In this document: positions 6,686 through 56,822 of the stretch, one piece after another
Numbering within the stretch: the first letter of the stretch is position 1
How the letters are laid out: the number at the start of each line of letters is the position of its first letter
Assembly: GCA_016218765.1 (NCBI GenBank)
Contig: JACRCZ010000141.1
Location: forward strand, 1-64,000
Reading direction: 5' to 3'
DNA: 64,000 bases
From: Deltaproteobacteria bacterium
GTDB lineage: Bacteria > Myxococcota_A > Polyangia > DRWM01 > JAAZOP01
Made by a program: the position numbers and the translations under genes
Notes under the pieces: model-generated
Database searches by the model: none
The model's input: only the letters and a program-made list of their open reading frames with translations
What the model was told of the DNA's origin: nothing

Positions 6686-7621
6686 ATGACCGCTCCCACC
6701 ACACGATTCGCTCCCAGCCCCACCGGTCGCCTGCACCTCGGGCACGCGGCGTCGGCCCGGCACGGATTCGAGGCGGCGCGGCAGGCGGGAGGACGGTTCC
6801 TGCTGCGCATCGAGGAAATCGATGGCACAAGGTGTCGAAGGGAACACGAGGACGGGATCCTCGATGATCTGCGATTCCTCGGACTGTCGTGGGATGGGGA
6901 GGTGCGGCGGCAGTCGGAACACCTGGACGACTACGAGCGCGCGGTGGAGCGGCTGCGGGAGATGGAGCTTCTGTACCCGTGCTTCTGCACGCGCGCCGAC
7001 ATCGCGGCGGAGATCGCACGCGCCGCATGCGCCCCCCACGACTTGCCCGTTCCCGGGCCGCTCGCGGGCCCGTGCGGGCCCCTCTATCCCGGCACCTGCC
7101 GCCGGATGGCGCGGGAAGACGCGGAGCGGCGGATCGCGAGCGGGGCAGGCTACGGGCTGCGGCTGGACGTCGAGCGCTCGGCGAGGCTGGCCGAGCAGCG
7201 CAACGGCGGACCGCTCTTCTGGCACGACCGGGGAGCAGGGCGGATCGAGGCGACCCCGCGAGCGCTCGGCGACGTGGTGCTGGCGCGCAAGGAGATCCCG
7301 ACCAGCTATCACCTCGCCGTCAGCGTCGACGACCATCTGCAGGGTGTGACGCTGGTCACGCGCGGGACGGACCTGTTCCACGCGACCCACATCCACCGCC
7401 TGTTGCAGGCGTTGCTGGGGTTGGATGTGCCGGAATACGACCACCATCCTCTGGTGCTCGACGATCGGGGGGAACGGCTCGCGAAGCGGCGTCACGCCCC
7501 GACGATCCGGTCGCTCCGCGACGAAGGGCGGACGGCGGCGGAGATCTGGCGGATGGCCGGCTGGCCGCCGGTGGGGGAGACGCGGAGTGGGGAAGCAGAA
7601 ACCACAGATGGACACAGATGA
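6686..7621 (+). CDS. gluQ: Glutamyl-Q tRNA(Asp) synthetase
   Basis: RFAPSPTGRLHLGHAAS (HIGH motif), RIEEIDGTRCR, YPCFCTR...YPGTC zinc-site pattern, ERLAKRRHAPTIRSLR; short, no anticodon-binding domain. Confidence 0.9.
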   Translation: MTAPTTRFAPSPTGRLHLGHAASARHGFEAARQAGGRFLLRIEEIDGTRCRREHEDGILDDLRFLGLSWDGEVRRQSEHLDDYERAVERLREMELLYPCFCTRADIAAEIARAACAPHDLPVPGPLAGPCGPLYPGTCRRMAREDAERRIASGAGYGLRLDVERSARLAEQRNGGPLFWHDRGAGRIEATPRALGDVVLARKEIPTSYHLAVSVDDHLQGVTLVTRGTDLFHATHIHRLLQALLGLDVPEYDHHPLVLDDRGERLAKRRHAPTIRSLRDEGRTAAEIWRMAGWPPVGETRSGEAETTDGHR

Positions 7622-7631
7622 GCACAGATAG
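7599..7631 (+). repeat. Dispersed repeat family A copy (aaCCACAGATGGACACAGATGAGCACAGATagg)
   Basis: 10-bp period words; homologous copies at 29849-29912, 44466-44499, 55361-55392, 55419-55440, 56742-56767 and 56791-56822. Confidence 0.85.
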
Positions 7632-44465: not shown

Positions 44466-44499
44466 GAAACCACAGATGAACACAGATGAACACAGATGG
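44466..44499 (+). repeat. Dispersed repeat family A copy (AACCACAGATGAACACAGATGAACACAGATG)
   Basis: Direct sequence; 10-bp period. Confidence 0.9.
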
Positions 44500-44515
44500 G
44501 GCGGAGGACAGATCC

Positions 44516-44965
44516 CTACGGGCAGGGGCAGTCGGCGGGACAGCGGGTGCAGTTCTCGGTGGGCGCACAGGTGCCGTCGCCGCAGACGGCGGGGCAGGAG
44601 CCGCAGTCGGCGGTGCAGTCGCGGCAGGATTCGCGGGGACCGCAGACGGAGTCGCCGCAGACGTCGCCGCAGGTGGAGCAGTCGGCGGGGCAGGTCGAGC
44701 AGTGCTCGGTGAGGCCGCAGACGTGGTCGCCGCAGACGTCGGGGCAGGAGCCGCAGTCGTCGGGGCAGGTGACGCAGCGCTCGTAGGGGCCGCACTCGCC
44801 GTCGCCGCACCAGGCGCAGACGCCGCAGTCGGGGAGGCAGGTGGTGCAGAACTCGGGGTAGTCGCAAATCCCGTCGCCGCAGTAGTTGGGGCAGTAGCCG
44901 CAGTCCCACATGCAGGACTCGCAGTCCTCGGTGGGTCCGCAGCGGGAGTCGCCGCAGACGTCGGG
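44516..44965 (-). pseudogene. In-frame continuation of the Cys-repeat protein downstream of an internal TGA (6 further repeat units)
   Basis: Same frame as 44966-47881; after TGA reads PDVCGDSRCGPTEDCESCMWDCGYCPNYCGDGICDYPEFC...CPADCPCP-stop. Confidence 0.8.
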
Positions 44966-47881
44966 TCAGGCGCAGCATTCGTCGGGGCAGCGCCAGCAGC
45001 TCTCGGTGGTGCCGCAGCGGCCGTCGCCGCAGACGTCGGAGCAGGGGCCGCAGTCGTCGGGGCAGGTGACGCAGGACTCGGTCCAGAAGCAGTGGCCGTT
45101 GCCGCAGGTGTCCTCGCAGTAGTCGCAGTCCATGGGGCAGTTCCAGCAGTCCTCGCCGGGGTCGCAGGTCCAGTTGCCGCAGCCGGGGCAGGAGCCGCAG
45201 TCGTTCGGGCAGGTGCCGCAATCCTCGCCGGTCTCGCAGGTGCCGTCGCCGCACCAGGTCGGGCAGTCGCCGCAGTCGCGGGGGCAGGTGTAGCACAGCT
45301 CGGAAGGGCCGCAGGTGCCGTCGCCGCACTCGTCGGGGCAGGAGCCGCAGTCGGCGGGGCAGTCGCGACAGTCCTCGGTGATCCAGCAGGTGCCGTCGCC
45401 GCAGACCTGGCAGCGGCCGCAGTCGTACCAGCAGCTGGCGCAGGTCTCGGTGGTGCCGCAGGTGCCGTCGCCGCAAGTGTCGGGGCAGGAGCCGCAATCC
45501 TCGGGACAGGTGGCGCAGCGTTCCGTGAACGGGTCGCACTCGCCGTCGCCGCAGGCGGGGCAGGCGCCGCAGTCGGGCCGGCAGCTCGTGCAGGTCTCGG
45601 AGATGCCGCAGGTGCCGTCGCCGCAGAGGTCGGGACAGGCGCCGCAGTCGGTGCGGCACGACGAGCAGTTCTCCTCGAACTCGCACCGCCCGTCGCCGCA
45701 CACCGGGGCGCAGAAGCCGCAGTCCTGCTGGCAGGTCGAGCAGGTCTCGCCGGGCTCGCAGATCCAGTTGCCGCAGCGCGGGGGGCAGGCGCCGCAGTCG
45801 GCGGCGCAGTCGGCGCAGGACTCGGTGGTGCCGCACACGCCGTCGCCGCAGACCTCGCTGCACGGGCCGCAATCGCCGGGGCAGTCGTAGCAGCTCTCGA
45901 GGTAGGCGCAGACGGCGTCGCCGCACGTGGGCTCGCAGAGGCCGCAGTCGTAGGGGCAGTTGTCGCAGGTCTCGCCGTCGCGCGAGCGGCAGTGGCCGTC
46001 GCCGCAGCCGGCGCAGACGCCGCAGTCGAGCCAGCAGCTCGAACAATCCTCGCCGACCTCGCAGATCCAGTCGGGGCAGCGCGCCGGGCAGGCTCCGCAG
46101 TCGCCGGGGCAGAACTCGCAGGTTTCCGTGGTGCCGCAGACGTGGTCGCCGCAGGAGTCGGGGCAGGGGCCGCAGTCGGCGGGGCAGGAGCCGCAGCTCT
46201 CGGAGCGCTCGCAACGCGCGTCGCCGCAGGCGCCGGGGCACTCGCCGCAGTCCCAGCGGCAGGTGGCGCAGCTCTCGGTGCGGTCGCACATCTCGTCGCC
46301 GCAGATGCCGGTGCAGACGCCGCAGTCTCCCGGGCAGGACCAGCAGGTCTCGGTGGCGCCGCAGGTGCCGTCGCCGCAGGAGTCGGGGCAGCCGCCGCAA
46401 TCGTCCGGGCAGGTGGTGCAGGTCTCGGAGGCGAGATCGCACCGTGCGTCGCCGCAGCCGGGGCAGCGCCCGCAGTCGTCGGGGCAGGAGGCGCAGGTTT
46501 CCGTGGCGCCGCAGACGCCGTCGCGGCAGACGTCGGGGCAGCCGCCGCAGTCGGCGGGGCAGTTGCGGCAGCTCTCGGCGAGGCCGCAGACGCCGTCGGG
46601 GCAGGCGGCGGGGCAGTCGCCGCAGTCGGCCGCGCACGTGACGCAGGACTCGGTCGGTCCGCAGACGCCGTCGGCGCAGACGTCGACGCAGGCCCCGCAA
46701 TCGGACGGGCAGGAGGAGCAGGATTCGGACGCGGAGCAGGCACCGTCGCCGCAACCGGGGCAGACGCCGCAGTCGACCAGGCAGGAGACGCAGGTCTCGG
46801 TCGCCCCGCACCGTCCGTCGCCGCAGAGGTCGGGGCAGGCGCCGCAGTCCGCGGCGCAGTCGGCGCAGTCCTCGGTCACGCCGCAGATCCCGTCGCCGCA
46901 GCGATCGGGGCAGACGCCACAGTCGCCGGGGCACGACGAGCAGGACTCGCCCCCGGTGCAGGTGCCGTCGCCGCAGCCGGGGCAGGCGCCGCAGTCCGCG
47001 GCGCAGGAGAGGCAGCTCTCCGTGGGACCGCAAAGCAGGTCGCCGCAGCGGTCGGGACAGAGACCGCAGTCCGCGGAGCACGAGGTGCAGGTCTCCGTGA
47101 AGCCGCACGAGCCGTCGCCGCAGACGTCGGGGCAGACGCCGCAGTCCTCGGGACAATCGACGCAGCCCTCCGTGGAGAGGCAGACGCCGTCACCGCAGGC
47201 GATGCAGGCGCCGCAGTCGGCACGGCAGGTGCGGCAGTCCTCGCCCGCCCCGGCGTCGCACGCGCCGTCACCGCACATGCGCGGGCACTCGCCGCAGTCG
47301 CCCGGACAGGTCTCGCAATCCTCGGCACCCTCGCAGGCGCCGTCGCCGCACTCGCCGGGACACGCGCCGCAATCGCGCGGACAGGACGCGCAGGTCTCGT
47401 CGGCCGAACAGATCCCGTCATCGCAGCCGGGACAGACGCCGCAGTCGCCCGGGCAGGAAGAGCACGACTCGGTGGCGTCACAGATGTCGTCGCCGCAGAC
47501 GCCGGGACAGACGCCGCAGTCGGACGCGCAGGTCTCGCAGGATTCGTCGGCGGCGCAGTAGCCGTCCCCGCAACCCGTGCACGAGCCGCAGTCCAGGGGG
47601 CAGGAGCCGCAAGTCTCGCCCTCGCCGCAGACGCCGTTGCCGCAGCCCGTGCAGGTGCCGCAGTCGGAGGCGCAGCTCCGGCACGACTCGGTCGTCCCGC
47701 ACGTGCCGTCGCCGCAGACGTCCGGCACGCACGGGCCGCAGTCGGCCTCGCACGACGAGCACGTCTCGCCGAAATCGCACGTGCTGTCGCCGCACGAGTC
47801 GTCCAGTACGGGGGTGCGGCCGCAGGCGGAGAGGGAGGCCACGGAGAGGAGGATCGAGAGAGCATGTCGTGCTGACATCAT
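44966..47881 (-). CDS. Large Cys-rich repeat lipoprotein (about 38 units of CGDGxCxxxExCxxCxxDCGxCP before the TGA)
   Basis: MMSARHALSILLSVASLSAC lipobox after AGGAGCAC; about 24-26-aa units, each with ~6 Cys. Confidence 0.88.
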   Translation of the reverse strand: MMSARHALSILLSVASLSACGRTPVLDDSCGDSTCDFGETCSSCEADCGPCVPDVCGDGTCGTTESCRSCASDCGTCTGCGNGVCGEGETCGSCPLDCGSCTGCGDGYCAADESCETCASDCGVCPGVCGDDICDATESCSSCPGDCGVCPGCDDGICSADETCASCPRDCGACPGECGDGACEGAEDCETCPGDCGECPRMCGDGACDAGAGEDCRTCRADCGACIACGDGVCLSTEGCVDCPEDCGVCPDVCGDGSCGFTETCTSCSADCGLCPDRCGDLLCGPTESCLSCAADCGACPGCGDGTCTGGESCSSCPGDCGVCPDRCGDGICGVTEDCADCAADCGACPDLCGDGRCGATETCVSCLVDCGVCPGCGDGACSASESCSSCPSDCGACVDVCADGVCGPTESCVTCAADCGDCPAACPDGVCGLAESCRNCPADCGGCPDVCRDGVCGATETCASCPDDCGRCPGCGDARCDLASETCTTCPDDCGGCPDSCGDGTCGATETCWSCPGDCGVCTGICGDEMCDRTESCATCRWDCGECPGACGDARCERSESCGSCPADCGPCPDSCGDHVCGTTETCEFCPGDCGACPARCPDWICEVGEDCSSCWLDCGVCAGCGDGHCRSRDGETCDNCPYDCGLCEPTCGDAVCAYLESCYDCPGDCGPCSEVCGDGVCGTTESCADCAADCGACPPRCGNWICEPGETCSTCQQDCGFCAPVCGDGRCEFEENCSSCRTDCGACPDLCGDGTCGISETCTSCRPDCGACPACGDGECDPFTERCATCPEDCGSCPDTCGDGTCGTTETCASCWYDCGRCQVCGDGTCWITEDCRDCPADCGSCPDECGDGTCGPSELCYTCPRDCGDCPTWCGDGTCETGEDCGTCPNDCGSCPGCGNWTCDPGEDCWNCPMDCDYCEDTCGNGHCFWTESCVTCPDDCGPCSDVCGDGRCGTTESCWRCPDECCA

Positions 47882-48130
47882 GCGTGCTCCTTTTCGGCGA
47901 AGCATGCCACGGGCTTCCGGGGGCGTCGAGCCCACCGGATCACTCCGCCGCCTGTGACAGCGTGACACGACATCGGTCGACTCCGGATTGGTCCGACGCG
48001 CCGGGATCCTGCCGGAGGAGTTGGATCCCGGCGCGCCGAGAACCGGGGAGAGAGAGGTGCGGAGAGCGTGCCAGTCAGGGGAAGTGCGGGGAGAGCGGGG
48101 AGAGCGGGAAGTGCGGGGAGAGCGTCGGGG

Positions 48131-54856: not shown

Positions 54857-55384
54857 CTACGGTTGGACTTCGAGCTGTTCACCCAGCTCGCGGATCTTGT
54901 CGAGGACTTCCTGCCGGCGCTCGTCGACCATGTCCGGGTCCTCGCCGAGATAACGCTGGTAGGCGCCGATGGCGCTGGCGACGTCGCCGAGCCGCTCGTG
55001 GCAGACGGCGAGGTTGTAGAGAATCGCGGCGCGCGGCGACAGCTCGTAGGCCTCGTTGAACTTGTCCAGCGCGGTGGCCCATTCGTCGACCTCGAATGCT
55101 CGCAGTCCCTCCTCGAACAGGTTCCTCGCCGCCTCGAGCCGCGGGTCGGGTGGGGGAGGGGGTGGGGGCAGGGGGATGGGCGGTTGCCCCGGGAGCGGCG
55201 GTCGCACGCCCGCCGCGGAGCCTTCGCCTTCCGACCGATCGGAAAGAGCCGAGTGGGCGACGTGCGCCTCGTACGCGGTCCGCACGGCCTCGTCCTGAGC
55301 CGGGCCCGCGCACGCGGCGGCGAGGAGGGCGGCGAGTAGCAGGACCGCTCGTGCCGTTTCCCATCTGTGTTCATCTGTGTTCAT
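54857..55384 (-). CDS. TPR lipoprotein whose start and N-terminus lie in a family A repeat
   Basis: MNTDEHRWETARAVLLLAALLAAACAGP; TPR-like FEEGLRAFEVDEWATALDKFNEAYELSPRAAILYNLAVCHERLG. Confidence 0.75.
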   Translation of the reverse strand: MNTDEHRWETARAVLLLAALLAAACAGPAQDEAVRTAYEAHVAHSALSDRSEGEGSAAGVRPPLPGQPPIPLPPPPPPPDPRLEAARNLFEEGLRAFEVDEWATALDKFNEAYELSPRAAILYNLAVCHERLGDVASAIGAYQRYLGEDPDMVDERRQEVLDKIRELGEQLEVQP

Positions 55385-55440
55385 CTGTGGTTGCCTTGTC
55401 CCCTCCGCGCCCTTTCCCCATCTGTGTTCATCTGTGGTTT
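55361..55440 (-). repeat. Dispersed repeat family A, two adjacent copies (55361-55392, 55419-55440)
   Basis: CCATCTGTGTTCATCTGTGTTCATCTGTGG and CCATCTGTGTTCATCTGTGG. Confidence 0.9.
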
Positions 55441-56741: not shown

Positions 56742-56822
56742 GAACCACCGATGGACACCGATGGGGGGGAGGGGAGGAAGAGGAGAGGAGAAGCCACAGA
56801 TGAACACAGATGAACACAGATA
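56742..56822 (+). repeat. Dispersed repeat family A, one CACCGATG copy and one CACAGATG copy in tandem
   Basis: GAACCACCGATGGACACCGATGGGG and AAGCCACAGATGAACACAGATGAACACAGAT. Confidence 0.88.

Follow-up and report, generated by a model that had tools for sequence, protein, structure and literature searches.

The stretch of DNA analysed (the window, 64,000 nucleotides) belongs to a metagenome-type assembly of 5.9 Mb in 154 contigs, estimated as 79.6% complete and here called G000. On its reverse strand it carries a gene encoding a long cysteine-repeat protein (Table 1). The frame opens at position 47968, the true start being probably an internal ATG near 47905-47878 (read by eye), and it meets a TGA at codon 1001; if this codon is read through, the frame ends with the TAG at 44518-44516 after 1150 residues. 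An earlier note, made from the letters of the window, had described this TGA as standing at a Cys position of a 44-unit Cys-repeat protein whose frame runs on for six more units to 44516, and both observations proved correct: the codon (44968-44966) lies in unit 38 and the continuation closes in TAG. The in-frame ladder of cysteines beyond the stop certainly exceeds chance.

Table 1. Features of the Cys-repeat gene and of the site of its interior stop
Feature	Position	Strand	Remarks
Cys-repeat ORF up to the TGA, with SLSAC lipoprotein-type signal and 38 six-Cys units	44966..47968	-	Signal/lipobox by eye
Units 39-44, continuing past the TGA with every Cys retained and closing in TAG	44516..44965	-	Same frame
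TGA in frame, in place of the sixth Cys of unit 38	44966..44968	-	TGC in G002, G003, G001
Repeat unit 38, CGDGRCGTTESCWRCPDECCA*PDV, six Cys still ahead of the stop	44957..45031	-	Unit split
Hairpin GUCUGCGGCG-ACUCC-CGCUGCGGAC	44935..44959	-	CAG to CGC on the G000 lineage perfects the stem
TGC codon, the sole Cys of the gene absent from relatives	44972..44974	-	GGC (Gly) in G002, G003

A mechanical split of the translation gave 44 units with exactly six Cys in each, following the pattern CGDGxC-x(4-6)-ExC-xxC-xxDCGxC, and the full-length product would be a secreted, probably lipid-anchored protein. Pfam and NCBIfam searches assigned it to no family, and a search of PDB sequences with a fragment of the G001 orthologue returned no significant match. 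A predicted fold of units 35-38 had low confidence scores (pLDDT 61, pTM 0.30) and was left out of the interpretation. Of 96 related genomes, about half carry similar six-Cys-repeat proteins (loci L047, L048 and L049, also L022-L025), with open frames reaching 1421 codons.

Orthologues of the gene were compared in three genomes congeneric with G000, namely G002 (JACRCX010000099.1), G001 (JAAZOP010000342.1) and G003 (JAFGHH010000183.1), which share 92% (G002) and 80-81% (G003 and G001) nucleotide identity with it. They encode 44-unit proteins with the same order of units and the same Cys ladder and, unlike G000, have no interior stop, the G003 copy ending at a contig edge. Around the site G002, G003 and G001 read DDCGACPDV, EDCGACPDV and ADCGNCPDV, whereas the window reads DECCA*PDV. 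The comparison with relatives that the earlier note had proposed thus gave TGC (Cys) in three of three congeners, in uninterrupted frames, so that TGC is the ancestral codon and TGA the derived one. Among 259 Cys columns common to three or all four of the genomes, G000 lacks the Cys at one only, which is the TGA site. No other interior stop was found in any Cys-repeat locus fetched. The idea that UGA recurs in this family was rejected, since the other flagged in-frame stops that were read lie at the ends of repeat arrays.

Three changes of the G:C to T:A type near the stop had been proposed by comparison with sibling units; judged against the three orthologues they hold on the G000 lineage, as GAC to GAA at 44978, GGC to TGC at 44974 and TGC to TGA at 44966. 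Half of the polarised G:C to T:A changes of the gene (three of six) fall within these 13 nt, for which random placement gives about 7e-4, a post hoc figure. Clusters of the same size were found at four other places between the two genomes compared, over the aligned parts of the window, which indicates that ordinary divergence can produce them. The 45 nt around the TGA carry six amino-acid-changing and no silent changes on the G000 branch, against 19 and 57, respectively, further upstream (Fisher 0.0005 to 0.0017, again post hoc), and form the densest amino-acid-changing stretch of the gene on that branch. The only gained Cys sits two codons ahead of the only lost one, and unit 38 therefore keeps six. 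Such a patch would fit a local multi-base mutation as well as a fault in the consensus. An origin of the altered stretch by copying from another part of the genome was considered and rejected, as a 21-mer (up to three mismatches) was found at this site only. Template switching between hairpin arms is a mechanism known from yeast (PMC8604942); as an idea, it would fit the CAG to CGC change in the stem, but it does not obviously account for the three G:C to T:A changes.

The position of the TGA at a Cys codon says little by itself. From the orthologous sequence, 404 one-step changes lead to a stop, 285 of them to TGA and 265 from Cys to TGA. Although the UGA does align with Cys in the homologues, about 66% of one-step nonsense mutations would do the same, and the coincidence consequently carries almost no weight for recoding. 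Upstream of the site dS between G000 and G002 is about 0.29, and none of the 36 downstream Cys codons has been hit, compared with 13.7 expected if they had been neutral over the whole G000 branch. If the tail is dead, the stop would accordingly date from within roughly the last 22% of the branch; an artefact would equally explain a tail that has not decayed.

UGA is a normal stop in this organism, since RF2 was detected in G000 above the cut-off and neighbouring genes supported by Pfam (phosphofructokinase, OmpA, laccase-like) end in TGA, and reassignment of the codon was rejected on these grounds. A UGA followed by C is a leaky context. The UGA of unit 38 does have C next to it and an intact frame downstream, as would suit leaky or programmed readthrough giving two lengths of protein, but no relative has a stop at the site, no conserved element was found and recency alone accounts for the intact frame. 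The readthrough listed as an option in the earlier note has no positive evidence on its side, and functional readthrough is in our opinion very unlikely.

The least probable reading, to which we give hardly any credence, is that SelB decodes the UGA as selenocysteine with the downstream hairpin acting as SECIS. Its attractions are the TGA at a Cys position in a frame that continues beyond it, a suitably spaced hairpin and the presence of all four sel genes in the congener G003. Gene searches and a tRNA scan, the check that the earlier note had suggested, found none of selA, selB, selC and selD in the host assembly; the best matches to the sel queries were tRNA-Gly, -Tyr and -Leu, IF-2 and ThiL. 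The joint presence of selB and selC in a genome is the signature of Sec decoding (PMC1273633), and the G000 assembly, about 80% complete, has neither this pair nor selA and selD. Among the four congeners only G003 has a selC-selA-selB cluster (G003:C148, L052:2657-6177), with selD on another contig, and no sel genes were found in G001 (99% complete) or G002; Sec decoding seems to have been gained or lost patchily within one genus. The G003 cluster adjoins a protease-like gene whose G000 orthologue lies inside a 90-kb contig, where the adjoining 9.6 kb do not match the cluster at the nucleotide level; in G001 the same site is also empty across the 2.8 kb present. Since the site occupied in G003 is covered, continuous and empty in G000, the lack of sel genes is not just a matter of incompleteness, although it is possible that a sel copy lies elsewhere in the G000 genome.

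The hairpin does not help this reading either. A stem about 6 nt after the UGA had been noted and does exist, as a 10-bp hairpin. Bacterial SECIS elements have a small apical loop containing G (PMC1088965), whereas the loop here, ACUCC, has none, and by folding energy the TGA site ranks only 47th among the 261 Cys codons of the gene; the earlier note had itself called the stem weak SECIS evidence. Moreover, selenocysteine at this site would give unit 38 a seventh Cys-like residue, whereas all 44 units hold to six. As in bacterial selenoprotein genes, the UGA of G000 is aligned to Cys in homologues and followed closely by a hairpin; unlike them, G000 has no Sec machinery, no G in the loop and no relative with the same UGA, all three congeners having Cys. 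Selenocysteine was rejected because the genome as assembled contains none of the machinery for it.

The explanation we favour, and hold to be fairly probable, is a recent nonsense substitution on the G000 lineage, with UGA as a true stop. One C to A change in the TGC codon, part of a local burst, would recently have created the UGA and cut the protein from 44 to 38 six-Cys units, leaving the six downstream units untranslated and too young to have decayed. The truncated product may be tolerated because its last unit keeps six Cys through the GGC to TGC change two codons earlier. We infer that the organism itself carries this base, that it makes a stable truncated protein and that the Cys pairing survives the shift in position. 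G000 resembles recent nonsense alleles in having a single, derived stop in a conserved frame, little decay after it and intact copies in close relatives, and differs from them in that the stop accompanies the relocation of a Cys in unit 38. The main rival, to which we assign a clearly smaller though substantial chance, is an error of assembly or consensus in which a GC-rich, hairpin-prone repeat was miscalled and the organism has TGC. The metagenome-type assembly, with its many contigs and its incompleteness, speaks for such an error, as do the perfect hairpin adjoining the site, the crowding of half of the G:C to T:A changes into so few nucleotides and the fact that every change in the 45-nt patch alters an amino acid. 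Against it, 14 conserved ORFs in the window contain no interior stop but this one (the other flagged stops lying at the 5' ends of over-long ORFs), so that the contig is not generally error-ridden, and the equally large G:C to T:A clusters at the four other places weaken the argument from crowding. Of the four options in the earlier note, nonsense mutation and assembly error are thus the ones favoured, and selenocysteine and programmed readthrough are left unsupported.

Both of the favoured readings, a recent nonsense change and an artefact, involve no recoding. The observation does serve as a warning that, in Cys-rich repeat proteins, a UGA standing where relatives have Cys is a poor basis for calling selenocysteine, because about two thirds of the one-step nonsense mutations of this gene would be of this kind and hairpins abound in GC-rich repeats. 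Should the base be real, a long array of disulfide repeats has been caught shortening with the six-Cys rule kept. A bolder reading is that the stop and the new Cys are coupled, the array having lost six units at the boundary of a unit while its last unit kept six Cys, in a truncation that is functional and perhaps selected; we consider this improbable.

The window also contains a short repeat, TTCATCTGTGTTCATCTGTGG, with seven matches (up to three mismatches) and none in 100 shuffles. Its sites include 7602-7622 (-), 44470-44500 (-), 55360-55390 (+), 55417-55437 (+) and 56794-56814 (-), and one copy lies directly 3' of the end of the Cys-repeat gene.
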